DNA of 64,000 nucleotides from Allobosea sp. CS1GBMeth4 (GTDB lineage: Bacteria > Pseudomonadota > Alphaproteobacteria > Rhizobiales > Beijerinckiaceae), in NCBI RefSeq assembly GCF_900185715.1, contig NZ_FYAS01000002.1:62001-126000 (forward strand), given 5' to 3'. The notes beneath the pieces were generated by a model. It was not told the DNA's origin, made no database searches, and saw only the letters and a list, made by a program, of their open reading frames with translations. Shown here piece after piece: positions 41,564-64,000 of the stretch (position 1 is the first letter of the stretch; each line of letters starts with the position of its first letter). The position numbers and the translations under genes were made by a program.

Positions 41564-43389
<1,826 letters not shown>

Positions 43390-43393
<4 letters not shown>

Positions 43394-44280: not shown

Positions 44281-44293
44281 GACAGCTTCGCCC

Positions 44294-45232: not shown

Positions 45233-45287
45233 GATGCCGCCGCAAGCGAGAGAAAGGGAGCGGCCGTCTCAGGGCCGCTCCCCGGGG

Positions 45288-46841: not shown

Positions 46842-46964
46842 TGCTGTTCCCCTGCGTTCTTGTTGGGTATCGGCGGTCCCGGCCTTGTGCCGGTGATGGC
46901 GAGCAGGACGACGATCCGTCCGGAGCGCGAAGCCTGTCCTGTCCTTGTCCCTCGGTCAGCGCGC

Positions 46965-47678: not shown

Positions 47679-47690
47679 CTGCCATGTCCT

Positions 47691-48848: not shown

Positions 48849-48858
48849 GTCGACAGCC

Positions 48859-49284
48859 TCAGGAGAGATCGACGCTGATGCGCTTTTCGGCTTCGTCCGA
48901 CCGGCGGCGATAGGCCGTCACCTCGAACTCGACCTTGAGCTCAGGCTGGCCGAGCGGCGTGCAGGTCGTGGTGTTGGCGGGGTCGATGCCCCGGAACTTG
49001 CGTCCGACGACCTCGCCGACCGCCTCCATGTCGGCGATGTCCGGCACGAAAACCCTGATCGCGACGACGTCCGCGAGCGAGGCGTCGACGGCGGCGAGCG
49101 CGCCCTCGATATTGCGGAAGGCCTGCTCGGCCTGGCCCCTGGCGTCGCTGGCGATGGCGCGGGTCTTATAGTTCCGCCCGGCCGTGTTGGAGACGAAGAT
49201 CATGTCGCCGGCGACCACCAGCCGCGAGTAGCTGTTCAGATCCTCGTACTTGCTCCCGGATTTGACTTTGATGATCTCGCTCAT
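48859..49284 (-). CDS. RidA-family imine/enamine deaminase
   Basis: A 141-residue RidA/YjgF-family protein. The pattern ARGQAEQAFRNIEGALAAVDASLADVVAIRVFV is characteristic; the usual catalytic Arg region near the C-terminus reads LKVEFEVTAY instead of the classical IEaiAv, so activity on standard 2-aminoacrylate is uncertain. GGAG six bases before the ATG at 49284 fixes the start. It is the first gene of the operon controlled by the 49370 operator. Confidence 0.85.
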   Translation of the reverse strand: MSEIIKVKSGSKYEDLNSYSRLVVAGDMIFVSNTAGRNYKTRAIASDARGQAEQAFRNIEGALAAVDASLADVVAIRVFVPDIADMEAVGEVVGRKFRGIDPANTTTCTPLGQPELKVEFEVTAYRRRSDEAEKRISVDLS

Positions 49285-49369
49285 GCGGATCTCCATTCAG
49301 GCATGGTCGGCGCGGCATGGCGGCTTCCACCATGCGTCGGCGATCGCTTGCCCGCGCGGTGCCGACATG

Positions 49370-49406
49370 ATTGGTGTATACCACTTAAGCCGTTCGACGC
49401 TGTCAA
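49370..49406 (-). promoter_or_regulatory. Promoter and GntR operator 1 (ridA operon)
   Basis: On the minus strand a perfect TTGACA (49401-49406) is followed after exactly 17 bases by TGGTAT (49378-49383). The -10 lies within ATTGGTGTATACCA (49370-49383), the operator form also found at 49508 and 53563. A bound repressor would cover the -10 of the ridA-FAD-SDR-dpp operon. Confidence 0.75.
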
Positions 49407-49501
49407 GGCACGTCGGCGACAAGGGTGCGTGGAAACCGTAGGGGACCCGATACGGCGCTCGCGCCGAAAATGACGCGCACCACCTCCGAGCGAGGACGCG
49501 A

Positions 49502-49530
49502 TTGACGTTTGGTATACACCAATCCATGCT
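49502..49530 (+). promoter_or_regulatory. Promoter and GntR operator 2 (binding-protein gene)
   Basis: TTGACG (49502-49507) and CATGCT (49525-49530) are 17 bases apart. The spacer is the operator TTTGGTATACACCAAT (49508-49523), the reverse complement of the 49370 form. It would control the binding-protein gene starting at 49561. The 276-base gap from 49285 to 49560 holds nothing else I can recognise. Confidence 0.72.
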
Positions 49531-49560
49531 GTTCCCTGGCCGCCAGCAAGGGGATCTCCG

Positions 49561-51087
49561 ATGACGATGATTTCGCGCCGTGCCCTTCTCGCCGCCGGAA
49601 CCAGCTTTCCCTTGGTTACGGCCTCCGCCTTCGCCCAGACGCCAGCGAGGAAGGTCCTGCGCTTCGGCCTGTCGAGCTTTCCGCCGAGCCTGCAGCCATG
49701 GGTCCATACGGGCACCGCCGCGCTGACCGTGAAGCTGCTGATCTTCCGCGGCCTGACCGGTTTCGACGAAAAGGGCGAGGTCCGGCCCGAGCTCGCGGAA
49801 TCCTGGACGCAGGACGGGCCGACCGGCTGGATCTTCAAGCTGAGGCAGGCGAGCTTCCATAACGGCAAGCCGGTGACGGCCGACGACGTCAAATGGACGC
49901 TGGAGCAGATCGCCGCGCCGAATTCCACCGCCTTCCTCAGGGCCGAGTTCGGCGGCATCGAGACGATCGAGACGCCCGATCCCCGCACCGTCCGTATCGT
50001 CATGAAGCAGCCGACGGTGACGCTGCCGATCTGGCTGGCCAGCCCGCACGCGCCGATCATCGCCAGGGACTCGATCGAGGGGCGCGGCCTCGGCGTCGGC
50101 GCGGGTCCGTTCGTGGTCAAGGACCAGGAGCGCGGCGTGTCGATCGAGGTCGCGGCCTTCGACAAATACTACAAGCCGGGCCTGCCCAGGCTCGCCGGCA
50201 TCAAGCTCACGGCCTATGCTGATGAGAACCTGCGCGTCGCCGCGCTCCAGGCCGGCGATGTCGATCTGATCGAATATGTGCCCTGGCAGCACATGGCGGC
50301 GATCGAGAAGGATCCGCGCCTTCATCTCGCTGCGGCCAACGGCCCCTTCATGGGTCTGAACTTCAACGGCACCAGCGGGCCGTTCAAGGATCCGCGCCTG
50401 CGCCAGGCGGTCGGTTTCGCCATCCGGCGCGAGGATATCGTCCAGGCTGCCTTCTTCGGACGCGGCACGCCGCTCCAGGGCATCCCGATCCCCGACACCA
50501 GCCCTTATCATGATGCCGGGCGGGCGAAATTCTGGAGCTATGATCCCGACAGGGCCAGGAAGCTGATGGCGGAGGCCGGCGTTCCGAAGGGCTTCTCCTG
50601 CACGCTGCTCTCGACGGCGCAATACGGCATGCACAAATCGACGGCCGAGGTGGTGCAGGCCCATCTCGGCGAGATCGGCATCGACGTGAAACTCAACCTG
50701 CCGGACTGGGCCTCGCGCGTCGATCTCGGCGGCAAGGGCCGCTACGAATTCTGCGTCCAGGGCACGACGGCCGACAACAACGATCCGGACGGGCTCGCAC
50801 CGCTGCTCGACGGCGAATTGCCGCCGAACATCTCGCGCAGCTTCGGTCTGCCGACGCCGGAGATCCACGCCCTTTTCGCCAAGGGACGCGCCGAGTTCGA
50901 TCTCGCCAGGCGAAAGGCCATCTATGCCGAGCTCGAGAAGCTCGCGCTGGAGCAGGCGCCCCTCGTCGGTCTCGCCTGGCGCTCCCAGGGTTATGGCATG
51001 GTCAAGGGCGTGACCGGCTTCAAGGCTCTGCCGGGCGGGACGAATTTCTTTTCGGCCTATTCGCTGGAAGAGACCTCGCTGGGCTGA
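49561..51087 (+). CDS. Family-5 binding protein with Tat-like signal
   Basis: A 508-residue DppA-class solute-binding protein. The signal MTMISRRALLAAGTSFPLVTASAFAQ has twin arginines, suggesting Tat export, and ends in an AxA site. The mature part has VRPELAESWTQDGPTGWIFKLRQASFHNGKPV. No permease gene follows, so it probably feeds the dpp-type permeases of the divergent operon as a second receptor, sharing their regulator. Confidence 0.9.
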   Translation: MTMISRRALLAAGTSFPLVTASAFAQTPARKVLRFGLSSFPPSLQPWVHTGTAALTVKLLIFRGLTGFDEKGEVRPELAESWTQDGPTGWIFKLRQASFHNGKPVTADDVKWTLEQIAAPNSTAFLRAEFGGIETIETPDPRTVRIVMKQPTVTLPIWLASPHAPIIARDSIEGRGLGVGAGPFVVKDQERGVSIEVAAFDKYYKPGLPRLAGIKLTAYADENLRVAALQAGDVDLIEYVPWQHMAAIEKDPRLHLAAANGPFMGLNFNGTSGPFKDPRLRQAVGFAIRREDIVQAAFFGRGTPLQGIPIPDTSPYHDAGRAKFWSYDPDRARKLMAEAGVPKGFSCTLLSTAQYGMHKSTAEVVQAHLGEIGIDVKLNLPDWASRVDLGGKGRYEFCVQGTTADNNDPDGLAPLLDGELPPNISRSFGLPTPEIHALFAKGRAEFDLARRKAIYAELEKLALEQAPLVGLAWRSQGYGMVKGVTGFKALPGGTNFFSAYSLEETSLG

Positions 51088-51130
51088 CCTGATCGCTCCG
51101 GCTTGGCTACGTGATGCGGGCGCGAGGCTT

Positions 51131-51265
51131 CCACGTGTGGACGCTCGCCACAAGGGCGAGCATGACGGAGATGTCGCGCGACCCGTCATTCGCCCCGGCT
51201 TCGCCGAGCCACCGTCTCCCGCAAGGGGAGGGCGCGGCTCCTCGCGATGAGGGCTGAAGGGAAGC
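51131..51265. repeat. Composite dispersed repeat
   Basis: Between the convergent binding-protein and FAD oxidoreductase genes lie CCACGTGTGGACGCTCGCCA with CAAGGGCGAGCATGACGG (51131-51167), a near copy of the element at 21875-21908. It is followed by an arm CGTCTCCCGCAAGGGGAGGG (51213-51232) related to the one at 23250-23287. It probably serves as a bidirectional terminator region. Confidence 0.7.
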
Positions 51266-51274
51266 CGGCCGCCC

Positions 51275-52597
51275 TCAGGCGACCCTGGTCGTGCGTTCCA
51301 GCCGGGCGAAGCGCTCGAGCCGGAAAGGCCTGGCGTCGATCAGCGGCGTGGCGCCCCTGACGAGATCGGCGATGAGCCGCCCGGCGCCCGGCCCGATGCC
51401 GAATCCATGGCCGGAGAAGCCGCTGGCGATGAAGAAGCCGGGCAGGCGCGGCACTTCGCCGATCACCGGCACGGCATCGGGCGTCGCATCGATGAAGCCG
51501 CCCCAGGCCTCCACGATCTTCAGGCCCGCGAAAGCCGGAAAGGCCTTGATCAGATTGGCCTGCCCTTCCTTCAGGATCTTGCCTACCGGCGCCGGATCGA
51601 GCACGCGCATGCACTCGAAAGGCGTCACCTCGTCGAGAGCCCAGCGCCGCCGAGTCCGCGCCTCTTCCAGGAAGCGCGCCCCGAGACGCAATCTGAGCTC
51701 ATGCCGCTGCTTCAGCAGCGAAGGCAGGAAATCACCGAACAGGCGGAACGAGTCCGGCACGATCTCGGCGGTGCTCGCGCCGCGATGGGCGATGGTGTAG
51801 CCGCCGTCCTGACGCTTGCGGAAGGCGAAGTCCGAGCCGCCGACGGCATGGGTCGGCGGGCCGTCGAGCGGTTCGGTGCGCAGGACCGAGCCGAGGACCT
51901 TGAGCTGCGGGAAGTCGATGCCGAGATTGCCGAGGAAGAGGCGCGACCAGGCCCCGCCCGCGAGCACGATCTGGGAGCAGGCGATCGGGCCGCGTTCCGT
52001 CACCACGGCGCTGACGCGGCCGGCCGTGGTCTCGATGCCGCGCACGGCGCAGCGCGTCAGCACAGTGCCGCCATGACGGCGCAGCGCGCGCGCCATGGCC
52101 GGCACGGCCTTTTGCGGCTCGGCCCGCGCATCGCTCGGTGTAAACAGCGCCCCGGCAAAGGCGCGCCTGCAGCCGGGCAGGGTGCTCTCGATCTCGCGCG
52201 AGCTCAGCAGCCGGGAGTCGAGCTGGTATTGCCTGGCATGGTCGAGCCAGGCCTCGTGCTCGGCTAGCTTGGCCGGCGTATCCGCCACATAGACGATGCC
52301 GGAGCGGGTGAAGCCGGTGTCGCCGCCGACGAGCCTGTCCATCTCGGTCCAGAGCCGCATGCTTTCGAGACCGAGCGGAATCTCGCCGGGATCGCGTCCC
52401 ATGATCCGGACCCAGCCCCAGTTGCGGCCCGACTGCTCATGGCCGACCTCGCCTTTCTCGCAGACCGTGACCGAGATTCCGTCTCTCGCCAGGAAGAGCG
52501 CGGTCATGATGCCGATGATGCCGCCGCCGATAACGACGACGTCGCTGCTCTTCGGCAGGGTCGCGTCGGCGTCGATCGTCTCGATCGTGATGCCCAT
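51275..52597 (-). CDS. DAO-family FAD oxidoreductase
   Basis: A 440-residue flavoprotein. VVVIGGGIIGIMTALFLARDG is the FAD motif, and SGRNWGWVRIMGRDPGEIPLGLES is a DAO-family segment paralogous to that of the 47691 protein. EAWGGFIDATPDAVPVIGEV and GFSGHGFGIGPGAGRLIADLV complete it. Some relatives oxidise Amadori compounds or opines, which would suit the operon, but no active-site residue proves this. GGGGAG eight bases before the ATG supports the start. It follows the gntR gene on the same strand. Confidence 0.85.
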   Translation of the reverse strand: MGITIETIDADATLPKSSDVVVIGGGIIGIMTALFLARDGISVTVCEKGEVGHEQSGRNWGWVRIMGRDPGEIPLGLESMRLWTEMDRLVGGDTGFTRSGIVYVADTPAKLAEHEAWLDHARQYQLDSRLLSSREIESTLPGCRRAFAGALFTPSDARAEPQKAVPAMARALRRHGGTVLTRCAVRGIETTAGRVSAVVTERGPIACSQIVLAGGAWSRLFLGNLGIDFPQLKVLGSVLRTEPLDGPPTHAVGGSDFAFRKRQDGGYTIAHRGASTAEIVPDSFRLFGDFLPSLLKQRHELRLRLGARFLEEARTRRRWALDEVTPFECMRVLDPAPVGKILKEGQANLIKAFPAFAGLKIVEAWGGFIDATPDAVPVIGEVPRLPGFFIASGFSGHGFGIGPGAGRLIADLVRGATPLIDARPFRLERFARLERTTRVA

Positions 52598-52667
52598 CAC
52601 ATGTGCTCCCCGGCCGGAGACGAAAGCCCGGCCCCAGGCCGGGAGCGAAAGGCAGGCAGCGGCATGA

Positions 52668-53414
52668 TCAGTCCTGTGGGGCCGGCGTGGAGTTGCGAAA
52701 GACGACGTGGTGGGGGTGGTTGACCGATTTCATGTATTCGATCGGCGTGCCGTCGCCGTCGCGCGCCACCAGCCTCAAGACCAGAGTGGGCGAACCGGGC
52801 TGGAGCAGAAGCAAGCGGGCCTCCAGCTCCGTCGCGATACCGACGCCGATCTCGCGGTCGCGCGCGCTGGCCTCGACGCCATAGCGGACCTTCAGCAGTT
52901 CGTAGAGCGACTGCCCGCCGACGAGGTCTTCCGCCACGAGGCCGGTGAAGCGCGCCGCCGGCAGGTAGCTGGTCTCGATGCAGAACGGTTCGTCATTCAC
53001 CGTGCGCAGCCGGCGGAACATGATCAGGTCGGAGCCGGCTGCGATGTCGAGCCGACGTGCGATGCTCTCGGTCGCCTTCTCCTCGCCGAAATGCAGCAGC
53101 TTGTTGCCGGGCTCGCCGCCGGCATTGCGGATGAGGCGGGTGATGCCGAGGGTCGAGTGCACCTCGATCGGGCGCGTCACCTGGACCAGCGGGACGCGGG
53201 TGCCGCTGGTGCCGTTGCGCTCCAGCACCTTGCGGTCGACGAGCTTGTCGATCGCCTTGCGCACGGTCATGCGGTTGATGCCGAGCGTATCGGCGAGCGC
53301 CCGTTCGGACGGGACGCGGTCGCCCGGGCCATAGTCCGGTCCGCTGATGAGATCGAGCAGATAATCCTGCACCTCGACGTAGATCGGCTTGGCCCGCTTC
53401 ACGGGTTCGCGCAT
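52668..53414 (-). CDS. GntR/HutC-family regulator with UTRA domain
   Basis: A 248-residue regulator. The GntR winged helix (about 15-75) shows YGPGDRVPSERALADTLGINRMTVRKAIDKLVDRKVLER. The rest is a UTRA ligand domain (ITRLIRNAGGEPGNKLLHF, then TSYLPAARFTGLVAEDL). E. coli FrlR and other sugar-amine regulators belong to this class. I chose MREPVKRAKP as the start. It is divergent from the deglycase operon, whose promoter carries operator 3, and is the likely regulator of all three ATTGGTGTATACCA sites. Confidence 0.9.
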   Translation of the reverse strand: MREPVKRAKPIYVEVQDYLLDLISGPDYGPGDRVPSERALADTLGINRMTVRKAIDKLVDRKVLERNGTSGTRVPLVQVTRPIEVHSTLGITRLIRNAGGEPGNKLLHFGEEKATESIARRLDIAAGSDLIMFRRLRTVNDEPFCIETSYLPAARFTGLVAEDLVGGQSLYELLKVRYGVEASARDREIGVGIATELEARLLLLQPGSPTLVLRLVARDGDGTPIEYMKSVNHPHHVVFRNSTPAPQD

Positions 53415-53540
53415 GGCTGGCGTCTCTCGGATGCTTCCCGCTTCCGCATATAGCGGAGATCGTGTCGGCTCCACCTGTCGGACGCATAAACCCGCAGATC
53501 CGTCGCGATCGCGCTGATCCACGGACCGGTTGGACTATGG

Positions 53541-53579
53541 TTGACAGGCATTGGTATAGGTGATTGGTGTATACCAATT
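53541..53579 (+). promoter_or_regulatory. Promoter and GntR operator 3 (deglycase operon)
   Basis: A perfect TTGACA (53541-53546) precedes, after 17-18 bases, the palindrome ATTGGTGTATACCAAT (53563-53578), which would cover the -10. A partial copy, TTGGTATAGGTG, lies directly upstream (53551-53562), so two dimers may bind. It drives the deglycase gene at 53607 and may also repress the divergent gntR gene. Confidence 0.75.
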
Positions 53580-53606
53580 CCTCGCCGCCTGGAAGTGACG
53601 TTCTCC

Positions 53607-54620
53607 ATGTCCATCGCCTACGATCGTGCCCGCGTGCAGGAGGGGCTCGCGCAGACCCGCGCCGCCGTGCCACGGGCCTTCGCGCTCGGCCGCCGCCTCG
53701 CTCCGGAGATCGACCGGATCTATCTCGTCGCCTGCGGCTCGGCGAACCGCGCCATGCTCGGCATCGCATACTGGCTCGAGCATTTTTCCCCGGGCATCGA
53801 GGTGCGCCGCTATTTCCCGGCGGAGTTCATGGCGATCGATCCGCCGCGCCTCGACGGCCGCACGCTGGTCCTGCTCGCTTCCAAATCCGGCACCACGCCG
53901 GAGACGGTCGCCGCCGCGGCGTTCCTGAAGGACAGGCCCTGCAAGGTCGTGGCGTTCAGCCAGCACGCCGACAAGCCGCTGGGCCAATCCGTTCCCGAAC
54001 GCTTCATCGTCGGCGAGACCAGCGAATCCTTCGTGGCGATGTTCATGCTGATGCAGGCGCTGGTCGGCGGGGTCATGGCGGAAAAGGAAGGCTGGCCGCT
54101 CGGCGACAAGCTCGTCTCCTCGCTCGACGCGCTGCCCGGCGCGATCTGCGATGCCGCGGAGCAGAACGAGGAGCGCGCCGCCGCCGATGCGCGCCTCTAT
54201 GCGCAGGACCGCAATTTCTATCACGTCGCCTCGGGGCCGGGCTTCACCACGGCCTATGTCTTCGGGGTCTGCATCCTGATGGAGATGCTCTGGCTGCACA
54301 GCTACCCGATCGAGGCGGCGGAGTTCTTCCACGGCCCGTTCGAGATCATCGACCGCAGCACGCCGCTCATCCTGATCAGCGGGGAAGATCCGAGCCGCCC
54401 GCTGATGGAGCGCGTCTCGGCGTTCTGCGACACCCATGCCGGGCGCGTGATGAAATACGATTCGCGCGATTTCGCGATGAAGGGCATCGCGCCGGAGATC
54501 CGCCCGATCGTCGCGCCCTACATTCTCCAATCGGCGCTGAAGCGCATGGCGGCGCATTTGTCGGTGCTCCACGATCAGCCGCTCTCGACCCGCCGCTACA
54601 TGTGGAAGGTCGCGTACTGA
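53607..54620 (+). CDS. FrlB/FraB-like SIS-domain deglycase
   Basis: A 337-residue double-SIS protein of the FrlB/FraB type, which cleaves phosphorylated Amadori compounds to glucose 6-phosphate and a free amino acid. The sugar-phosphate loop is SKSGTTPET (92-100). AAEFFHGPFEI (237-247) is the family active-site segment. Glu226 and His242 are 16 residues apart, the same spacing as the catalytic Glu214/His230 pair I recall for Salmonella FraB. It lies first in an operon with an FrlD-like kinase, which makes the substrate type convincing. Confidence 0.82.
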   Translation: MSIAYDRARVQEGLAQTRAAVPRAFALGRRLAPEIDRIYLVACGSANRAMLGIAYWLEHFSPGIEVRRYFPAEFMAIDPPRLDGRTLVLLASKSGTTPETVAAAAFLKDRPCKVVAFSQHADKPLGQSVPERFIVGETSESFVAMFMLMQALVGGVMAEKEGWPLGDKLVSSLDALPGAICDAAEQNEERAAADARLYAQDRNFYHVASGPGFTTAYVFGVCILMEMLWLHSYPIEAAEFFHGPFEIIDRSTPLILISGEDPSRPLMERVSAFCDTHAGRVMKYDSRDFAMKGIAPEIRPIVAPYILQSALKRMAAHLSVLHDQPLSTRRYMWKVAY

Positions 54621-54645
54621 ATCTCGGTATGGAGCGGAGGCGCTC

Positions 54646-55485
54646 ATGACCCGCAGGCTGCTCGGGCTCGGCGACAACACGGTCGACACCTATGTCGATC
54701 GCGGCCTGCAATTCCCCGGCGGCAATGCGGTCAATGTCGCGGTCCTGGCCCGCAGGCTCGGCGCCGAGACGGGTTATCTCGGCTGTCTCGGCTCCGACGA
54801 GGGCGGGATGCTGATCGTCGACGCCCTGCGCCGGGAGGGCGTGGATACCAGCCGCTGCCGCATCCTCGCCGGCGACAATGCCCGCGCCTTCATCGGTCAT
54901 GACGGCAATGACCGCCGCTTCCTGCGCTCGCAGCACGGGGTGCGTGGGCAATGGGGCCGGTTCTCGCCCGAGGATCTTGCCTATGTCGCGGCCTTCGATC
55001 TGGTGCATTCGAGCGTCTACAGCGAACTCGACGGCGAGCTTGCGACGCTCCGTCGTGCCGTGCGCCGTTTCTCCTATGACTTCTCCGAGCGTTGGACGGA
55101 GGCCAATCTGGCGGCGACGCTGCCCTCGCTCGACATCGCCTTCCTGTCCTTCCCCTCCGGTTCCGACGCCGAATGCCGCGATCTGGCTCGCTGCTGTGCC
55201 GATGCCGGGCCCGGCCTCGTGGTGGTGACGCGCGGCGCGCGCGGCGCATTGGCGATGGCGGGTGGGGTATTCCACCAGAGCGGGATCACCGAGGCCGACA
55301 TCGTCGATACGCTGGGCGCCGGCGACGGCTTCATCGCCGCGTTTCTTCTGGCCGTGCTGGAGGAGAAAAGCATTCCGGAGGCGCTGGCCGCGGGCGCGGC
55401 GAATGCCGCGACGGTCTGCGCCTATCAGGGCGGCTTCGGCCATGGCGTGCCGTGGTCGGCCGCCGCAGAGACGGCGTTCGGTTGA
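54646..55485 (+). CDS. FrlD-like PfkB-family sugar-amine kinase
   Basis: A 279-residue PfkB kinase of short length. GDNTVDTYVDRG and FPGGNAVNVAVLARRLGAETGYLGCLG at the N-terminus, FSYDFSERW (142-150), and DTLGAGDGF with catalytic Asp227 closely match fructoselysine-6-kinase FrlD. It should phosphorylate C6 of the sugar of an Amadori compound to make the substrate of the deglycase encoded 26 bases upstream. Sugar identity and amine are not shown. Confidence 0.82.
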   Translation: MTRRLLGLGDNTVDTYVDRGLQFPGGNAVNVAVLARRLGAETGYLGCLGSDEGGMLIVDALRREGVDTSRCRILAGDNARAFIGHDGNDRRFLRSQHGVRGQWGRFSPEDLAYVAAFDLVHSSVYSELDGELATLRRAVRRFSYDFSERWTEANLAATLPSLDIAFLSFPSGSDAECRDLARCCADAGPGLVVVTRGARGALAMAGGVFHQSGITEADIVDTLGAGDGFIAAFLLAVLEEKSIPEALAAGAANAATVCAYQGGFGHGVPWSAAAETAFG

Positions 55486-55503
55486 ACGGGAGGATTGGGG
55501 ATC

Positions 55504-57555
55504 ATGGCCTGGCGTATCGGGATCGATTCCGGGGGGACCTTCACCGATGTCTGCCTCTTCGACGATGCCAGCGGCCAGGTCGCGGTCTGGAAGGTGCCCT
55601 CGACGCCGGACGATCCGTCCCGCGCCATCGCGCTCGGCACGCAGGAGGGCTGCGAACGCGTCGGCGCCAGGCCGAGCGAGGTCGTCTATTTCGGCCATGG
55701 CACGACGGTCGGCACCAACGCCCTGATCCAGCATCGCGGCGTCAGGACGGGTCTCATCACGACCGACGGCTTCCGCGACCTGATCGAGATCGGCCGCCAG
55801 AAGCGCCCGGATCTCTACGACCTCCAGGCCGACAAGCCCGCGCCGCTCGTCACCCGCGACCTGCGCTTCGGCGTCGCCGAGCGCGTCCGCCATGACGGCT
55901 CGGTCGAAACCCCGCTCGACGAAGACGGCGTGCGCCAGGCGGCGCGCGCCCTCAAGGCGGCCGGCGTCAAGGCGGTCGCGATCGGTTTTCTCTACGGCTT
56001 CGTCCGCCCCGAGCATGAGGATATCGCGCGGCGCATCGTGGCCGAGGAATTCCCCGAGGCCTTCATCTGCACCTCGCATGAGGTCGCGCCGGAATTCCGC
56101 GAATATGAACGCATCTCGACGGCGGTGGTGAACGCCTATCTCGGCCCGGTCATGCAAGGCTACATCCAGCGCCTCGCCGGGCGGCTGGAGGACCTCGGCG
56201 TCACCGCGACGCCGCATCTGACGCAATCCAATGGCGGTGTCATCGGTTTCGACATGGCTGCGCGCCTGCCGGTGCGGACCGTGCTGTCGGGGCCTTCGAC
56301 CGGCGTCGTTGCGGCGCAGGCGATCGGCGCGATGACCGGGATCGCGAACCTGATCACCTTCGACATGGGCGGCACCTCGTCCGACGTCGCGCTGCTGCGC
56401 AAGGGCGAGGCCAAGCTCGCCAGCGACGCGATCGTCCACGGCTATCCGATCAAGGCGCCGATGCTCGACATCCACACGGTCGGCGCCGGCGGTGGCTCGA
56501 TCGCGGCGATCGATTCGGGCGGCCTGCTCAAGGTCGGGCCGCGCAGCGCCGGCGCCGACCCAGGCCCGGTCTGCTACGGCCGCGGCAGCACTGAACCGGC
56601 CGTCACCGACGCCAATGTCGTGCTTCAGACGCTGAACCCGACGCATCTGCTCGGCGGGCGCATGCCGATCGACCAGTCGCTCTCGCGGCAGGCGATCGGC
56701 CGCATCGCCGACAAGCTCGGCCTCGACCTGATGGCGACGGCGCAGGGCATCATCTCGGTCGTCACCGCCAACATGGCCAAGGCCATTCGCGTCATCAGCG
56801 TCCAGCGCGGCCATGATCCGCGGGATTACGCGCTGGTCGCCTTCGGCGGGGCGGGGCCGCTTCACGCCGCCCGTCTCGCGCGCGAGCTGGAGATGAAGCG
56901 CATCATCGTGCCGCGCAATCCCGGGATCGGCTGCGCGCTCGGCCTGCTGCTCACCGATCTGCGCGCCAATTTCGCGACGACGCGCCTGGCGACGCTCGGT
57001 GACGGGCTCGTCGGCGACATGGCCGAGGTCTTCGCCGGTCTCGAAGCCCAGGCCGAGCACTGGTTCGCCGAGGAGAAGGTTGCCCCCGCCGATCGCAGGG
57101 TCAGGCGCACCGCCGATCTGCGCTATCATGGTCAGAACTACGAACTCGCCATCGACCTGCCGGAAGGGGCGATCACGGCCGGGACGATCGCTGCTCTCGC
57201 TGAGGGCTTCGCCGAGGCGCACAGGCGGCTCTACGGCTTCATTGCCGAGGGCGAGGCGGTGCAACTCGTCACCTACCGCGTCGAGGCGATCGGCTTCGTG
57301 CCGAAGGCCGAGTTCCGGCCGCAGCCCGATGCCGGGCCGGATGCCTCCGCCGCCCTCGTCGGCCGGCGCGAGGTCTGGTTCCCGGAGGCGGGGGGCTTCG
57401 TCGATTGCCCGATCTATGACCGCGACGCGCTGAAATCGGGCAACCTGATCGAAGGGCCGGCGATCATCGAGCAGATGGACGCGACCACGGTGCTGCTGCC
57501 CGGCATGACCGCCCGTGTCGAGCCCTATCTCAACCTGATCCTGGAGACGCCGTGA
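55504..57555 (+). CDS. Hydantoinase/oxoprolinase A subunit
   Basis: A 683-residue HyuA-type protein, ATP-dependent. IGIDSGGTFTDVCLFD is the actin-like phosphate loop; HGTTVGTNALIQHRG and FDMGGTSSDVALLRKGE are typical. With HyuB it forms ATP-dependent hydantoinase, 5-oxoprolinase or related carboxylase complexes. Its stop overlaps the hyuB start by one base. It follows the kinase gene by 18 bases. In this operon it may open a lactam such as pyroglutamate formed from glutamine conjugates. Confidence 0.9.
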   Translation: MAWRIGIDSGGTFTDVCLFDDASGQVAVWKVPSTPDDPSRAIALGTQEGCERVGARPSEVVYFGHGTTVGTNALIQHRGVRTGLITTDGFRDLIEIGRQKRPDLYDLQADKPAPLVTRDLRFGVAERVRHDGSVETPLDEDGVRQAARALKAAGVKAVAIGFLYGFVRPEHEDIARRIVAEEFPEAFICTSHEVAPEFREYERISTAVVNAYLGPVMQGYIQRLAGRLEDLGVTATPHLTQSNGGVIGFDMAARLPVRTVLSGPSTGVVAAQAIGAMTGIANLITFDMGGTSSDVALLRKGEAKLASDAIVHGYPIKAPMLDIHTVGAGGGSIAAIDSGGLLKVGPRSAGADPGPVCYGRGSTEPAVTDANVVLQTLNPTHLLGGRMPIDQSLSRQAIGRIADKLGLDLMATAQGIISVVTANMAKAIRVISVQRGHDPRDYALVAFGGAGPLHAARLARELEMKRIIVPRNPGIGCALGLLLTDLRANFATTRLATLGDGLVGDMAEVFAGLEAQAEHWFAEEKVAPADRRVRRTADLRYHGQNYELAIDLPEGAITAGTIAALAEGFAEAHRRLYGFIAEGEAVQLVTYRVEAIGFVPKAEFRPQPDAGPDASAALVGRREVWFPEAGGFVDCPIYDRDALKSGNLIEGPAIIEQMDATTVLLPGMTARVEPYLNLILETP

Positions 57556-59159
57556 TGAACGCGACCGCATCCGTCGCCGTCGATCCGATCACCGTCGAGG
57601 TCATCGGCTCCGCCTTCGCCTCGATCACCGAGGAGATGGGCGAGGCGCTGGTCAGGGCGAGCTACTCCACCAACATCAAGGAGCGCCGCGACTGCTCGAC
57701 GGCGCTCTTCGACGTCGGGGGCGACACCCTCTGCCAGGCCGAGCATATTCCGATGCATCTCGGCTCGTTCATCGGCATCATCCCGCATATCCTGAAACGC
57801 CATGCCATCGCCGAGATGAAGCCCGGCGACGTCTTCATCGGCAACGACGCCTATGAGGGCGGCGGCACGCATCTGCCCGACATCGTCCTGGCCGAGCCGA
57901 TCTTCCATGACGGAGAGATGGTCGCCTGGGCCGTCAACACGGCCCATCATTCCGATTTCGCCGATCGCGGCCACGCCCATATCTATCAGGAGGGTCTCCG
58001 CATCCCGCCGATCCGGCTCTATGACGGCGGGGTGCTGATGAAGGACGTGCAGGAACTGATCCTGCTCAACTGCCAGGTCCCGCGCGAGCGTCTTTCGGAT
58101 CTGCGCGCCCAGATGGCGGCGAACCGGCTCGGCGTCGAGCGCGTTCGCGCGCTCTGCGACAAATACGGCCGCTCGACCGTCCTCGCCGCCGGCAGGGCGC
58201 TGCAGGATTATGCCGAGCGCAAGATGCGCGCCGGCATCGCCTCGATTCCCGACGGCGTCTATCGCTTCGAGGATTCCTTCGACAATCCGGAGATCGACGA
58301 GCCGCTGAAATTCTCGGTCGAGATCACCGTCGCAGGCGAGCAGATGACGCTCGCTTTCGACTCGCCGCCGCAGATGCGCACCGGCTTCAACATGGTCTAC
58401 ACCGCGCTGCTCTCGACGGTGTACTACGCCGTCAAGACGGTCGCCGACCCGACGATCCCGCCCAATGCAGGCCTGGCGCGGCCGCTCACCGTCGCCGCCA
58501 CGCAAGGGACGGTGCTCAACTGCGTCCATCCGGCGGCGGTGAACGGACGCATCGCGTCCTGCCAGCGTGTCGTCGACCTCATCCATGGCGCACTCGCCCA
58601 GGCCGTCCCCGAGCGCGTCATCGCGGCGTGCTCGGGCGCGGTCGCCGCGGCGACCTTCATGGGGGCGCAGCCCGGCAGCGGCGATCTCTGGGTCTATCTG
58701 GAGACGATCGGCGGCGGCAGCGGCGCGCGCGCGACCAAGGACGGTCTCGACGGCGTCCATGTCCATATGACCAACACCTCGAACCTGCCGGTCGAGGCGC
58801 TCGAGGTCGAGTATCCGCTCACGCTCCTGCGCTATGAGCTGGTCGACGGCTCGGGCGGGCTGGGCCGCCAGCGCGGAGGCATGGGCTTGCGCCGTGTCTA
58901 CAGAGCCGAAGCGCCTTGCCGACTCAACCTCGACAATTCACGGCTGACGTCGCAGCCCTGGGGCATTGCCGGTGGCGGGCCGGGGCAGGGCGGCTCCTTC
59001 GCCTTCAGCGAGGGCGTCGAGCCCTTCGTCAAGGGCGACGGCGCGCTGGAAGCCGGGCAGATCGTCGAGATCATCACGCCCGGCGCCGGCGGCTATGGCC
59101 CGGCCTCCGAACGCAGCCCGGAGGCGCGGGCGCGGGACCTTGCCGAGGGTCGGGTTTGA
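57555..59159 (+). CDS. Hydantoinase/oxoprolinase B subunit
   Basis: A 534-residue HyuB-type protein. ITEEMGEALVRASYSTNIKERRDCSTALFD, IGNDAYEGGGTHLPDIVL and the C-terminal GGSGARATKDGLDGVHVHMTNTSN are hallmarks. It is the partner of the HyuA protein and last gene of the four-gene operon. I chose the ATG overlapping the hyuA stop; a GTG three bases earlier is also open. Confidence 0.9.
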   Translation: MNATASVAVDPITVEVIGSAFASITEEMGEALVRASYSTNIKERRDCSTALFDVGGDTLCQAEHIPMHLGSFIGIIPHILKRHAIAEMKPGDVFIGNDAYEGGGTHLPDIVLAEPIFHDGEMVAWAVNTAHHSDFADRGHAHIYQEGLRIPPIRLYDGGVLMKDVQELILLNCQVPRERLSDLRAQMAANRLGVERVRALCDKYGRSTVLAAGRALQDYAERKMRAGIASIPDGVYRFEDSFDNPEIDEPLKFSVEITVAGEQMTLAFDSPPQMRTGFNMVYTALLSTVYYAVKTVADPTIPPNAGLARPLTVAATQGTVLNCVHPAAVNGRIASCQRVVDLIHGALAQAVPERVIAACSGAVAAATFMGAQPGSGDLWVYLETIGGGSGARATKDGLDGVHVHMTNTSNLPVEALEVEYPLTLLRYELVDGSGGLGRQRGGMGLRRVYRAEAPCRLNLDNSRLTSQPWGIAGGGPGQGGSFAFSEGVEPFVKGDGALEAGQIVEIITPGAGGYGPASERSPEARARDLAEGRV

Positions 59160-59241: not shown

Positions 59242-60207
59242 TCACACTACGAGGTCGAGCGGCGGCACCGGCTCGCCGCGGGAGACGTGCTCGATATTGG
59301 CGAACATCCGCTTGACGGTGGGCGCGAAATTGTCGGCGGCCATGGCGGCGAGATGCGGCGTCACGACGAGGTTGTCGAGCGTGAGCAATTCGCTGTCGGC
59401 GGGCAGCGGCTCGACGGAGAAGACATCCATCGCCGCGCCTGCGATCTCCTTCGCGCGCAGGGCCACGACCAGGTCGGCCTCGTTGACGACGCCGCCGCGG
59501 GCGACATTCACCAGCACGGCCGTCTTCTTCATCGTCCGGAAGGCGGCGGCATCGATCAGATTGGTGGTCTCCGGCGTGAGCGGGCAATGCAGCGAGACGA
59601 CGTCGGACTGCGCCAGAAGCTCCGCCATCGAAGCGTGCCTGACGCCGAGCGCCGCCTCTTCCGCGGCGTCGAGCGGTTGGCGCTTCGCATAGAGGATGGT
59701 GCAGCCGAAGCCCTTGAGCAGCCTGGCGACGTTCTTGCCGATGGCGCCGAAGCCGACAATGCCGACCGTCTTGCCCGAAAGCGTGTAGGTGTCGCCCGGC
59801 ATGTGCCCGGTGCGCCAATGGCCCTTTTTCAGTTCGGCGTGGCCATAGCCGATGAAGCGCAACGCGGCGAGCGTCAGGCCGAGCGCGAACTCGGCGACCG
59901 GCACGGCGTTGCTGCCCGTGGTCCTGGCAACCTTGATGCCGAGCTCTTTCGCCGCCGCGACGTCGATATTGTCGACGCCGACGCCCCATTTATGCAGCAG
60001 CTTCAGCTTCCTGGCCGCGCGCAGCACATCGGCCGAAACGCCGACCTGGCCGGAAATCGCGTAGTCGGCCCCGGCAATGATCTCCTTCATGTGTGCGTCG
60101 CCGCGCGCCGTGCCGTGGGTCAGCACGAAGCCGGGCGGCAGCAGCGCGCGCAGCTTCTCGGCGCGCTCGGGGGCGGTCATGTCGAGGAGCACGATGGTTT
60201 CGGGCAT
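59242..60207 (-). CDS. D-2-hydroxyacid dehydrogenase
   Basis: A 321-residue NAD-dependent 2-hydroxyacid dehydrogenase. GFGAIGKNVARLLKGFG is the NAD motif; the catalytic Arg is in NVARGGVVNEADL, the Glu in DVFSVEPLP and the His in VTPHLAAM. Such enzymes interconvert 2-hydroxy and 2-keto acids, including glyoxylate or hydroxypyruvate. It is the last gene of a leftward operon, 24 bases after the glutamyltransferase-like gene, and convergent with hyuB. Confidence 0.9.
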   Translation of the reverse strand: MPETIVLLDMTAPERAEKLRALLPPGFVLTHGTARGDAHMKEIIAGADYAISGQVGVSADVLRAARKLKLLHKWGVGVDNIDVAAAKELGIKVARTTGSNAVPVAEFALGLTLAALRFIGYGHAELKKGHWRTGHMPGDTYTLSGKTVGIVGFGAIGKNVARLLKGFGCTILYAKRQPLDAAEEAALGVRHASMAELLAQSDVVSLHCPLTPETTNLIDAAAFRTMKKTAVLVNVARGGVVNEADLVVALRAKEIAGAAMDVFSVEPLPADSELLTLDNLVVTPHLAAMAADNFAPTVKRMFANIEHVSRGEPVPPLDLVV

Positions 60208-60231
60208 GATCAGGGATCCGGTGGCAAAGGG

Positions 60232-61908
60232 TCAGATGGTGAAGCGCACGCCTTCGCGCGCGAGCCCGCCGGATATCCCGACGGGGGTGCCGTCGGCGCG
60301 CCAGCAGGCCGCTCCTGTCAGCGTGCCGTCCGGGTTGACGGCGATGGCGTTCATGCCGCCAGCGATGCGCGGCATGCGCAGGATCCTGTGGCCGCGCGCC
60401 GTGAGTTCGTCCGCGACGCTGTCCGGGATCGCGGACTCGAGCTCGAGCACGCCGCCCTCGGTCCAGACACGCGGCGCCTCGACCGCTTCCTGAAGGCTCA
60501 TGCCATGGTCGATCAGGTTGACGATCGCCTGCAGGGCGGAGGGAAAGATGCGCAGAGCCCCGGGCAGTCCGAGGGCGAAGGCGAGCTTGCCGTCGCGCAG
60601 CACCATCATCGGCGCCATCGAGGTGAAGACGCGCTTGCCGGGCGCGATCGACAGGGCGCGGCCGGGATGCGGGTCGAAATTGAACATGTAGTTGTTGGTC
60701 AGCATCCCCGTGCCGGGGATCTGCGTGCAGGCGCCGAAGAGCCCGTTGATCGTCTGGGTCGCGGCGACGACATTGCCATGGGCATCGGCGACCGTGACAT
60801 GGGTCGTGTCGGCAGATTCGCCGCCGGAGAGCCCGGCGCTCCAGGCTTTGGCTCGGTCCATCGCGATCAGAGCGCGCCGCTCGGCCGCATAGGCCTTGTC
60901 GACGAGCCGCTCGACCGGAACCTTGATGAAGGCGGGGTCGGCGGTGGCGACGGCCCTGTCCGCGAAGGCGATCTTGAGCGCTTCCGCCAGAAGATGCACC
61001 GCATCCGCCGAGCCGAAGCCGAGGGAGCCGATGTCGTAGCCCTCGAGGATGTTGAGCATCTGGACGATGTGCACGCCCGAGGAGGAGGGCGGCGGCGGGC
61101 CGACGATCTCATGGCCGCGATAGCTGCCACGCACGGGCTCGCGCGTCGCGACCTTGTAGGCGGACAGGTCGGCCTGCGCGATCAAGCCCCCGCTCGCCGC
61201 CATGAAATCCGTCAGCGCCTTGCCGAGCGGGCCGTCATAGAGCGCGGCTGGACCCTGTCTGGCGATCAGGCGCAGACTTGCGGCATAGTCGGCCTGAACG
61301 AGCCGCGTGCCGGGTTCGATCGCCTTGCCTCCCGCCAGCAGCAGCGCCGAGAGCCCGGGATCGCGCCCGAGATCGGCGACATTGTCGGTGATGCAGTTGG
61401 AGAGATAGGGCGTGGTGACGAAGCCGCGTTCGGCCAAGGCGATCGCCGGTTGCAGCACCTCCTCCAGCGAGAGCGTGCCGAAGCGCGAAAGCGCCTCGCA
61501 CCAGCCGGCCAGTGCGCCGGGGACCGCGACCGCCTTCGGCCCGACGACGTTGAGCCGGTCGCGCACGTCCCGCTGCCGGCCGACCTCGTCGGAGAGGCAG
61601 TCATACATGTCGGGCGTCGCCTGGAGCGGCGCGGTCGAGAGCCCGTCGAGGACGACATGGCGGCCATCCGCCATGCGGACATGCGCGACGCCGCCGCCGA
61701 GGATGCCGACCATCATGGGCTCCACGACGGTCAGCGCAAAGAGCGAGGCGACGGCGGCATCGACTGCGTTGCCGCCCGCAAGCAGCATCTGCGAGCCCGC
61801 CGCCGAAGCGAGCGGGTGGTTGGTCACCACCATCCCGCGCGAGCCGGTGGCCGGCCGCTTCTCGCAGGTGAACGGGGCCAGCCGCGGCACAGGGGGGATC
61901 GCGTTCAC
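60232..61908 (-). CDS. Gamma-glutamyltransferase-family protein
   Basis: A 558-residue Ntn-hydrolase of the GGT family, starting at GTG. HPLASAAGSQMLLAGGNAVDAAVASLFAL is its N-terminal motif. The autoprocessing site TTHVTVAD has Thr368 as the probable catalytic residue, and FTSMAPMMVLRDGKL follows in the small subunit. No signal peptide is seen, so a cytoplasmic enzyme is likely. It may release glutamate or act on gamma-amide conjugates brought in by the ABC transporter in the same operon. Confidence 0.88.
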   Translation of the reverse strand: MNAIPPVPRLAPFTCEKRPATGSRGMVVTNHPLASAAGSQMLLAGGNAVDAAVASLFALTVVEPMMVGILGGGVAHVRMADGRHVVLDGLSTAPLQATPDMYDCLSDEVGRQRDVRDRLNVVGPKAVAVPGALAGWCEALSRFGTLSLEEVLQPAIALAERGFVTTPYLSNCITDNVADLGRDPGLSALLLAGGKAIEPGTRLVQADYAASLRLIARQGPAALYDGPLGKALTDFMAASGGLIAQADLSAYKVATREPVRGSYRGHEIVGPPPPSSSGVHIVQMLNILEGYDIGSLGFGSADAVHLLAEALKIAFADRAVATADPAFIKVPVERLVDKAYAAERRALIAMDRAKAWSAGLSGGESADTTHVTVADAHGNVVAATQTINGLFGACTQIPGTGMLTNNYMFNFDPHPGRALSIAPGKRVFTSMAPMMVLRDGKLAFALGLPGALRIFPSALQAIVNLIDHGMSLQEAVEAPRVWTEGGVLELESAIPDSVADELTARGHRILRMPRIAGGMNAIAVNPDGTLTGAACWRADGTPVGISGGLAREGVRFTI

Positions 61909-61919
61909 GGGCCTGTTCC

Positions 61920-62597
61920 TCAGCCGTTCTGCTTGAGCGCGTCGAGCACCATCCTGGTCGCGCCCGAGATGTCGCCGAGCTTCTCGCCGGCCTTCACCCG
62001 CTCCTGGTTGCGTTCGCCGCGCTCCTGCCGGGCGATGGCGGCGTCGGCGATCGCCTCCGCCTCGTCGCGCGGCAGCACCAGCACGCCGGACTCATCCGCC
62101 AGGATGACGTCGCCGGCTTTGACGGGAACATTGCCGCAGGAGATCGGCAGGTTGAGCGTTCCGCCGAGATTGTAGAGCCGGGTCGTGATCGGCGACATGC
62201 CGCGGCACCACATCGGGAAATCCGAGTCTTCGATCTCGGTCAGGTCGGTGCAGGGGCCGTCGACGATGCCGCCGATCGCGCCGGCCGCCTTCGCCGCGAC
62301 GGTGACGCCGCCGCCCCAGCAGGCATGCTTGTCGTCGCCGAGCCGGTCGACGACGAGGATGTCGCCCGGCCGCAGCAGGCCGAGCGCGTGGTGCAGCAGC
62401 GTGGAATCCTGGCCAGGAATGGCGAGCGTCACGGCCGCGGCCGCGATGCGCTTGCCGCGCAGCAAAGGCTGGATGCCACGATCCATGAAGCCCCAGTGCC
62501 GGGAATGGCCGATGGTCGCGGTCTCGACCTTCTGCAGTTTCTCGACAAGCGCGGCCGGCAGCTGTTCCGGCATCGGGGCGATGCGGTAATCGGGCAT
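61920..62597 (-). CDS. RraA-like protein
   Basis: A 225-residue RraA/HMG-aldolase-family protein. GQDSTLLHHALGLLRPGDILVVDRLGDDKHACWGG is characteristic. In known aldolases the active site has Asp-Gly-x-x-Arg-Asp; here it reads DGPCTD, with Thr117 where the catalytic Arg is expected (ACC codon). Lyase activity may therefore be lost or altered. It lies between the permease and GGT-like genes. Confidence 0.85.
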   Translation of the reverse strand: MPDYRIAPMPEQLPAALVEKLQKVETATIGHSRHWGFMDRGIQPLLRGKRIAAAAVTLAIPGQDSTLLHHALGLLRPGDILVVDRLGDDKHACWGGGVTVAAKAAGAIGGIVDGPCTDLTEIEDSDFPMWCRGMSPITTRLYNLGGTLNLPISCGNVPVKAGDVILADESGVLVLPRDEAEAIADAAIARQERGERNQERVKAGEKLGDISGATRMVLDALKQNG

Positions 62598-62606
62598 GGG
62601 AATCTC

Positions 62607-63395
62607 CTATTTTCCGACGGCGCGCGCGATGCCGACGAGACGTTCCACGATGATGACGACGATCAGCGTCGCGACGATCAGCACGACCGAGAGCGCCGCG
62701 ACGAGCGGGTCGGTGCGGCCTTCGACATAGCGCACCATCTCGACCGGCAGGGTCGCGGCGCGCGGGCCCGACAGGAAGAGCGAGATCACCGTCTCGTCGA
62801 AGGAGAGCAGGAAGCACAGGCAGGCGCAGGCGATCAGGCCGGGCGTCACCAGCGGCAACGTCACCCGCCGGACCACACGCCACGGCTCGGCACCCAGCGT
62901 CGCCGCAGCCGCCTCGATATCGTCGGGCAATGTCGAGAACGCCGTCGTCATCATCCGGATGACGAAGGGCACGGTGACCGTCATGTGCCCCAGCACGAGG
63001 CCGGGCAGCGTCGCGGTCAGCCGCAGCGGCGTGAAGAACAGCAGCAGGGCGAGACCCGTGATCAGCGTCGGCAGGAGGAGCGGCGCGAGAAAGAAGTTCG
63101 TCAGCGCGTCACGCCCCGAAAAGCGCCCCTTGGCCAGCGCCAGCGCGGCGGGCACGCCGATGACGAGCGAGAGCACCGTGACCACGCTGGCGATCTGGAC
63201 GCTGAGCCAGAGCGCCGAGAGCAGCGGCCCATGCGCGCCCAGCGCCCTGAACCAGCGCAGCGAATAGCCCGAGGGCGGGAACAGGATGAAATTGTCCGCC
63301 GAGAAGGCGAGCGCGACGACGATCGCGATCGGCGCCAGGATCAGCGCATAGACGAGGCCCGCGAGGCTGGAGAGGACGCGTCCGGCTCCGTTCAT
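62607..63395 (-). CDS. ABC permease (PotC-like)
   Basis: A 262-residue permease of the polyamine/opine type. ALVYALILAPIAIVVALAFSADNFILFPPSGYSLRWF is a typical start and DDIEAAAATLGAEPWRVVRRVTLPLV is the ATPase-contact EAA loop. It overlaps the upstream permease gene by four bases. The substrate is not visible; transporters of this class carry polyamines, opines and similar amines. Confidence 0.9.
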   Translation of the reverse strand: MNGAGRVLSSLAGLVYALILAPIAIVVALAFSADNFILFPPSGYSLRWFRALGAHGPLLSALWLSVQIASVVTVLSLVIGVPAALALAKGRFSGRDALTNFFLAPLLLPTLITGLALLLFFTPLRLTATLPGLVLGHMTVTVPFVIRMMTTAFSTLPDDIEAAAATLGAEPWRVVRRVTLPLVTPGLIACACLCFLLSFDETVISLFLSGPRAATLPVEMVRYVEGRTDPLVAALSVVLIVATLIVVIIVERLVGIARAVGK

Positions 63396-64000
63396 CGCTT
63401 CAGCCCCCGCGCCGCGAGGTTGGAGGCGGCGAGCAGCAGGAGCAGCAGGACGAGCGTGTAGATCGCCAGCACCGAGGCCACCGGCCAGTTGGTGTTGGTC
63501 GTCGCCTGCTCGAAGATCTCGGTCGCCAGCACGAAGACGCGGCCGCCGCCGAGCAGTTTCGGCGTGATATAGGCCGACATCGACAGCACGAAGCCGAGCC
63601 CAGCGGCGAGCGCCAATGCCGGCAGGCTCAGCGGCAGCGTCACCCGCAGGAAGGTCCGCATCGGGGTGGCGCCGAGCGAGCGCGAGGCTTCTTCGAGCGT
63701 CCGGTCGAGCTGACCGAAGCCGGCGAGCAGGGCCAGGATCATGTAGGGCATGATGCTCTCGGCCAGCCCGATGGTGACGCCGGTCCAGTTGAAGACGAGC
63801 TTCATCGGCGCGGTGATCAGGCCGAACGACTGCGCCAGCGAATTGACGAGGCCGCGATCGCCGAGGATGGCGAGCCAGCCGAAGACGCGTACCACGCCGG
63901 AGATCAGCATCGGCATGATCGCGACCACCGCGAGCAGGCCGCGAAAGCGTGAATTGGTACGGAACAGGAAGAGCGCGACCGGATAGGACAGCGCGAGTGC
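63392..64000 (-). CDS. ABC permease (PotB-like), partial at window edge
   Basis: The 202 codons inside the window are the C-terminal part of a PotB-like permease; the frame is open to the right edge (ALALSYPVALFLFRTNSRFRG before the nearest internal GTG). RTLEEASRSLGATPMRTFLRVTLPLSLPA is the EAA loop. The operon must continue beyond the window, probably with ATPase and binding-protein genes. The start is not in the window. Confidence 0.9.
   Translation of the reverse strand, partial: ALALSYPVALFLFRTNSRFRGLLAVVAIMPMLISGVVRVFGWLAILGDRGLVNSLAQSFGLITAPMKLVFNWTGVTIGLAESIMPYMILALLAGFGQLDRTLEEASRSLGATPMRTFLRVTLPLSLPALALAAGLGFVLSMSAYITPKLLGGGRVFVLATEIFEQATTNTNWPVASVLAIYTLVLLLLLLAASNLAARGLKR

Follow-up and report, generated by a model that had tools for sequence, protein, structure and literature searches.

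A putative catabolic unit joining Amadori kinase and deglycase genes to a proposed HyuAB lactam opener in Allobosea sp. CS1GBMeth4

Results

Amadori-type and hydantoinase-type genes in one operon

The 64,000-nucleotide stretch analyzed here, hereafter the window (Allobosea sp. CS1GBMeth4, contig NZ_FYAS01000002.1, positions 62,001 to 126,000), is part of a 5,073,819-base (5.07 Mb) genome and carries at window positions 53607-59159 an operon for an FrlB/FraB-like SIS deglycase (FrlB), an FrlD-like PfkB kinase and the hydantoinase/oxoprolinase subunits HyuA and HyuB; the closest named loci by deglycase are Bosea or Bosea-like. We consider it likely that the region from 41564 to 59159 is one catabolic unit for sugar-glutamate conjugates that are partly present as the pyroglutamate lactam, with a HyuAB-PfkB-FrlB route as set out below. 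This reading is based on gene order, homology, the residues of the deglycase, operator-like sites, the recurrent coupling with HyuAB and the kinship to the agropinic/mannopinic acid region of Ti plasmids. An initial annotation, made from the letters of the window, had proposed that an Amadori kinase and deglycase are joined to HyuAB, acting as an ATP-dependent opener of pyroglutamate-type conjugates. This proposal, in which substrate and ring opening are predicted from sequence, gained support from conservation in two proteobacterial classes and on one Bacillota plasmid, from a palindrome and from Ti-plasmid homology.

All four genes are intact and on the plus strand as annotated, and their Pfam and solved-structure matches agree. 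FrlB and PfkB are separated by 25 bases, PfkB and HyuA by nine, while HyuA and HyuB overlap by four. The SIS protein reached 44.5 bits against a Pfam SIS cut-off of 25, and its best solved match was 3eua, a putative fructose-amino-acid-6-phosphate deglycase (183.5 bits). The Glu and His that had been placed at the FraB spacing are present at residues 226 and 242 (numbered from 53607), and 27 of 28 deglycase rows (two repeated contigs included) share the pattern E-x15-HGP, the exception being L058. A His 16 residues after the catalytic Glu, as H242 is here, is presumably catalytic in FraB. E226 aligns with E214 of FraB, whose E214A mutant is reported to be inactive (PMC12755824). HyuA and HyuB are complete, with Hydant_A_N, Hydantoinase_A, Hydant_A_C and Hydantoinase_B all above their Pfam cut-offs, and matched both a solved 5-oxoprolinase (460 and 185 bits, respectively) and a solved N-methylhydantoinase (543 and 276 bits). 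Kinase and deglycase genes are adjacent to each other and lie beside a GntR-family regulator gene in the window and its relatives, as in frl/fra operons.

Conservation of HyuAB beside the deglycase

Neighborhoods were compared in 25 loci of named genomes that had been retrieved by the deglycase alone (loci are numbered L0xx throughout). A HyuAB pair was found near the deglycase in 21 of these, two of the pairs being non-orthologous, which is a neighborhood beyond chance. In 19 loci HyuA and HyuB follow the kinase, with orthologous HyuA proteins of 71-92% identity; these comprise 11 Bosea or Bosea-like loci, Pseudoxanthomonas, Luteimonas, Sphingomonas, Novosphingobium, Limobrevibacterium and the contigs L021, L026 and L029 from metagenome-assembled genomes (MAGs). 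The orthologous linkage thus spans two proteobacterial classes, Alphaproteobacteria plus Pseudoxanthomonas/Luteimonas. Absence of HyuAB from the cluster in close relatives, named by the initial annotation as evidence against it, was not observed, since all 11 Bosea or Bosea-like loci have the pair. The two non-orthologous pairs, in Sphingobium (L017) and MAG L018, are a different HyuAB (42%) located on the far side of GntR. In the remaining four loci (L022, L023, L024 and L027) a sugar-type ATP-binding cassette (ABC) importer directly follows the kinase in HyuAB's stead, which we count in favor of the proposed unit; the binding protein of the L022 importer belongs to Pfam SBP_bac_1, and its counterparts in the other three are 68-70% alike to it.

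A plasmid of Priestia filamentosa (L065, 6938-13896; Bacillota) carries genes for a major facilitator superfamily (MFS) protein, SIS, HyuA, HyuB, PfkB and GntR in series, with 37.5% (SIS), 46% (HyuA) and 35% (kinase) likeness to the window. Here Amadori and hydantoinase genes appear to have come together separately in Bacillota. Adjacency of deglycase/kinase and HyuAB genes recurs with three HyuAB lineages (agropinic-acid type, Sphingobium type and Bacillota type; a further set of 32 rows). In a tree of HyuA, one clade of 29 rows (support 98/95; HyuA only) contained the Ti-plasmid HyuA together with all 14 orthologous frl-linked rows, while two HyuA paralogues from the same genome as the window fell outside. 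This tree omitted 14 of 53 rows, namely L029, partial and repeated rows, one row with an extended overrun and several of the closely related Bosea rows.

The deglycase (E limit 1e-50) was rare in random draws, with matches in three of 385 genomes of the class, one of them only 35% alike, and three of 199 genomes of the family, own genome counted, while the HyuA clade (E limit 1e-220) was found in 11 of the latter. All three deglycase genomes of the family draw have deglycase and HyuA clade in one cluster (Fisher 1.3e-4, kinship uncorrected). The nine same-genus genomes listed in the family draw had neither at these limits, and the unit is therefore accessory.

The content of the unit varied among loci. 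In Terrarubrum (L033) genes for GntR, SIS, PfkB, RidA, the flavin adenine dinucleotide (FAD)-dependent oxidoreductase DAOa, a short-chain dehydrogenase/reductase (SDR), both substrate-binding proteins (SBPs), ABC components, HyuA and HyuB lie side by side, and a second FAD-dependent oxidoreductase, DAOb, was the only unit member not found. The frl-hyu loci of Pseudoxanthomonas, Luteimonas, Sphingomonas and Novosphingobium are leaner and had no match to SDR, DAO or opine-type SBPs in the stretches compared; they have TonB receptors, some of them with MFS or gamma-glutamyltransferase (GGT) genes. One or two GGT-family genes lie near the frl-hyu operon of L014, L015 and L016, accompanied in the first two loci by a TonB receptor gene. 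By analogy, and as a guess, such GGT-family proteins might deamidate fructosyl-glutamine; in Salmonella, the periplasmic asparaginase FraE makes fructosyl-aspartate from fructosyl-asparagine before import (PMC12755824).

Several further loci have deglycase-type genes in other settings. In the Hyphomicrobiales MAG L029 (2322-3135) the deglycase match ends at residue 190 and the kinase match begins at residue 200; roughly 1 kb seems to be missing across the two genes, by deletion or assembly error, while HyuAB and the palindrome remain. Deinococcus plasmids (L062-L064) combine GntR, SIS (52-56%) and PfkB with a small ABC binding protein, and their deglycase is preceded by the same type of palindrome. 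A Rhizobium plasmid (L066, 5595-13641) has an Amadori-like set of SIS (35%), sugar ABC genes, PfkB, an FAD oxidoreductase and a LacI regulator, without HyuAB.

Operator-like palindromes

The exact 13-mer TTGGTGTATACCA occurs three times in the genome, each time inside the cluster (Table 1), and its reversed control did not occur. A looser 14-base form with one mismatch retrieved the same three sites (reversed control, one match per strand), and shuffling the window 100 times gave no match with one mismatch allowed. As the three palindromes were found only in the cluster, its transcription units look like one regulon, and the GntR protein probably controls them through these putative sites.

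Of 29 loci, 23, the three Deinococcus loci among them, have the form TGGTNTANACCA no more than 165 bases before the deglycase; it was absent from the 483,211 bases of 23 loci that have a different hyu or just a distant deglycase. The count excluded L030, L040-L044 and L057, being the own copy or contigs already represented, L029, whose deglycase is truncated, and rows below 50% identity (L031, L041 and L058); Priestia L065 (37%) was included manually. Two loci outside the count, L066 and L067 (35-37%), had no palindrome. Additional copies precede the non-orthologous HyuA of L017 (by 96 bases), the HyuA of MAG L018 (an 11-base version, by 93 bases), DAOb (L026), SBPb (L025 and L021) and RidA (L021). 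In L014 a palindrome coincides with the beginning of the TonB receptor gene, within the first codons of its longest reading, and L016 has one at the matching place.

Relation to the Ti-plasmid aga/moa region and other known systems

The aga/moa region of Ti plasmids (octopine-type NC_002377 and pAoF64/95) shares with the window HyuA, HyuB, an FAD oxidoreductase, RidA, peptide-type ABC importers and AgaA/MoaA-type SBPs, with the SDR also common to pAoF64/95 and the window. Likeness to the Ti region L032 was 66% for HyuA, 68% for HyuB, 57% for both DAOb and RidA, 54-65% for the ABC components, 48% for SBPa and 41% for SBPb. Both SBPs of L032 are the solved AgaA and MoaA, whose structure entry titles name agropinic and mannopinic acid, and both types are present in the window (best solved matches 6hlx and 6tfq). 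Mannopinic acid is N-mannityl-glutamate and agropinic acid its lactam; the HyuAB of the Ti region (agaF/agaG) is presumably the pair assigned to opening this lactam. The initial annotation had grouped regulator, transport and FAD genes under the same theme as the operon, which is supported by neighborhood conservation, the palindromes and the Ti-region homology of SBPs, FAD enzyme, SDR and RidA. Unlike in the window, neither the SIS deglycase nor the PfkB kinase had a match in the 26-30 kb of Ti aga/moa regions examined; these also showed no frl-type operator site, and their annotated regulators are DeoR/LacI rather than GntR. The window SDR was also considered as MocC of mannopine catabolism and rejected; the SDR of L032 that we take for mocC by gene order is only 30% alike.

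Kinase and SIS deglycase are found together, as in the window, in Bacillus frlBONMD and in enteric frl/fra, and the regulators FrlR and FraR of these pathways are of the GntR type. To our knowledge, the frl/fra pathways have no HyuAB and import by a sugar ABC system or FraA; in Bacillus, the importer is the sugar ABC FrlONM (PMC12632257). A lactam opener in the window would take a preparatory place comparable to that of Salmonella FraE (PMC12755824). Fructosyl-glutamine (santhopine) is the substrate of soc/dfg catabolism in Rhizobiaceae and Arthrobacter, the same compound class in a soil/plant setting (PMC4231840, PMC8262997). Lactamase/hydantoinase genes also occur in the rideopine region of pTiS4 and pTiAB2/73, where they are ascribed to spontaneous lactam formation; rideopine is a putrescine opine without sugar, and the available excerpts do not mention kinase or deglycase for this region (PMC8554961). 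Pyronopaline shows that lactam opines exist and are taken up (PMC4192606). Among the matches listed, the combination of Amadori kinase/deglycase and HyuAB was not found in the open-licence PMC literature. The Soc enzymes, as far as we know, are of the FAD amadoriase type, without kinase/deglycase or HyuAB.

The initial annotation, which knew of no described pathway with this exact set, overstated how unprecedented the pathway is, since the Ti-plasmid region is related to it but has no kinase or deglycase. Both halves have been described before (the kinase and deglycase from Amadori pathways, HyuAB from opine regions), and what looks new is a lactam front end joined to Amadori chemistry. If true, this would give a specific role to a HyuAB pair that is often annotated without a substrate, would explain bacterial use of Amadori compounds closed into lactams and would connect the catabolism of crown-gall opines with that of Amadori compounds in bacteria other than Agrobacterium.

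Proposed pathway and alternative explanations

From these observations we infer every substrate, the order of steps, the opening of the lactam and the binding of GntR to the sites. Lactam and open-chain conjugates would enter through the peptide-type ABC importer with its AgaA-like and MoaA-like SBPs, and HyuAB would use ATP to open the pyroglutamate lactam to N-glycosyl-glutamate. Where needed, the SDR would oxidize a reduced (mannityl) sugar to the fructosyl form. The PfkB kinase would then phosphorylate N-fructosyl-glutamate to the 6-phosphate, which FrlB would split into glucose-6-phosphate and glutamate, while DAO and RidA may provide a second, oxidative route that breaks the sugar-nitrogen bond. 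From established chemistry, lactam opening should precede deglycation because an amide nitrogen cannot form a Schiff base. The leaner Xanthomonad/Sphingomonad loci, with no match to SDR, DAO or opine-type SBPs in the stretches compared, suggest that the fructosyl lactam itself can be a substrate. With somewhat better than even chances, HyuAB is more generally an N-fructosyl-pyroglutamate lactamase that feeds Amadori kinase/deglycase pairs and was joined to them independently in three HyuAB lineages, which would imply that cyclized fructosyl-glutamine is a common soil/plant nutrient and that one ring-opening step is common to mannityl-opine and Amadori catabolism.

A number of observations weigh against the proposed unit and its substrates. 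The SIS protein, at 108.4 of 430 bits, is below the NCBIfam equivalog cut-off for fructoselysine-6-phosphate deglycase (E. coli FrlB), the kinase reached 211.6 bits against the NF007321 (FrlD) cut-off of 247, even though this was the best of 22 families (next 80.7), and HyuA (631.5) and HyuB (251.6) missed the caprolactamase (CapAB) NCBIfam cut-offs of 1000 bits. The proteins are consequently filed as relatives of FrlB, FrlD and caprolactamase, not as equivalogs, and their true substrates may differ from those of these families. A likeness of 41-48% to AgaA/MoaA likewise leaves the predicted ligand of the SBPs unfixed. HyuAB had no match in any of the four remaining deglycase loci (L022, L023, L024 and L027) or in the three Deinococcus plasmid loci examined (of four listed), FrlB was missing from eight of the 11 HyuA-clade genomes in the family draw, and several frl-hyu loci lack DAOb, SDR, RidA and opine-type SBPs. 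The palindrome was absent before the deglycase in six of the 29 loci (L015, L019, L022, L024, L027 and Priestia L065), three of which (L015, L019 and L065) have HyuAB.

The cluster could instead be an opine system outside Ti plasmids that imports only mannityl forms (agropinic/mannopinic acid), with the SDR converting mannopinic acid to fructosyl-glutamate and the kinase/deglycase replacing the last steps of the Ti route. AgaA and MoaA as the best solved matches of both SBPs agree with this, as do the Ti-type relatives of SDR, DAOb, RidA and ABC components, but the core in the leaner loci described above must use something already fructosyl, and mannityl opines hardly occur beyond crown galls and hairy roots; we regard this explanation as unlikely. 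An ordinary 5-oxoprolinase/hydantoinase that salvages free pyroglutamate or another lactam, and neighbors the Amadori genes for no reason other than that both supply glutamate metabolism, would fit the matches to solved 5-oxoprolinase and N-methylhydantoinase given above. It is quite improbable in view of the clustering of HyuA with the aga-region HyuA apart from its two own-genome paralogues, the operator-like site that also precedes the non-orthologous HyuAB of L017, and the opine-type SBPs. The missed FrlB and FrlD cut-offs leave specificity open, so that kinase and deglycase could act on another conjugate (fructosyl-lysine, fructosyl-asparagine or a glycosylamine) while HyuAB and the opine genes form a separate pathway sharing the regulator; against this very improbable arrangement stand the operator-like sites common to the units and the adjacency that recurs with three HyuAB lineages.

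Organization of the unit and neighboring genes

The unit is wider than the four-gene operon, with regulator, transport and redox genes extending to 41564 (Table 1). For SBPa, 6tfq (entry title, MoaA with mannopinic acid) reached 518 bits and the next match 156; its predicted model was poor (pLDDT 59.7) and served only for reading structure-entry titles.

Table 1. Features of the candidate unit (window coordinates; percentages are likeness to the locus named)
Feature	Position	Strand	Evidence
Peptide/opine-type ABC transporter ATPase, both halves in one chain	41564-43393	-	54% to Ti L032 22774-24534; 77% to Terrarubrum L033
ABC permease	43390-44280	-	56% to Ti L032 21968-22762
ABC permease	44294-45232	-	65% to Ti L032 20964-21887
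SBPa, MoaA-like substrate-binding protein	45288-46841	-	6tfq best solved match; 48% to Ti L032 24677-26215
SDR, proposed mannityl to fructosyl oxidation	46965-47678	-	55% to SDR beside HyuAB on pAoF64/95 (L034)
DAOa, FAD-dependent oxidoreductase	47691-48848	-	Pfam DAO; 72% in Terrarubrum cluster L033
RidA family protein, imine/enamine hydrolase type	48859-49296	-	Pfam Ribonuc_L-PSP; 57% to Ti L032 20188-20568
Operator-like TTGGTGTATACCA	49371-49383		75 bases before RidA-DAOa-SDR-ABC unit
Operator-like palindrome TTGGTATACACCAA	49509-49522		39 bases before SBPb
SBPb, AgaA-like substrate-binding protein	49561-51087	+	6hlx best solved match; 41% to Ti-plasmid protein
DAOb, FAD-dependent oxidoreductase, L-amino acid deaminase-like	51275-52600	-	Pfam DAO; best solved match 5fjm, 272 bits; 57% to FAD gene immediately before Ti HyuA
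GntR/UTRA regulator, start codon uncertain, divergent from frl-hyu operon	52668-53522	-	Pfam GntR and UTRA; beside deglycase in relatives
Operator-like palindrome TTGGTGTATACCAA	53564-53577		Between GntR and FrlB
FrlB/FraB-like SIS deglycase	53607-54620	+	Pfam SIS, 3eua match, E226/H242; alternative upstream TTG start at 53541 possible
FrlD-like PfkB kinase	54646-55485	+	Pfam PfkB; top NCBIfam match NF007321 fructoselysine 6-kinase
HyuA, hydantoinase/oxoprolinase A, proposed lactam-opening subunit	55495-57555	+	Pfam Hydant_A_N, Hydantoinase_A, Hydant_A_C
HyuB, hydantoinase/oxoprolinase B, proposed lactam-opening subunit	57552-59159	+	Pfam Hydantoinase_B

Downstream of HyuB, the minus strand of 59242-63998 encodes a D-2-hydroxyacid dehydrogenase, a GGT above the TIGR00066 cut-off, an RraA-like protein and ABC permeases, which probably form a separate catabolic unit. 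The GGT, D-2-hydroxyacid dehydrogenase and RraA genes (59242-62597) were considered as members of the unit and rejected, as they lie on the opposite strand beside other ABC genes; in the 11 Bosea or Bosea-like loci, tblastn found none of the three in the approximately 3-5 kb of flank that follow HyuB. The GGT of the window is only 27-28% alike to those of the Luteimonas, Pseudoxanthomonas and Sphingomonas loci.

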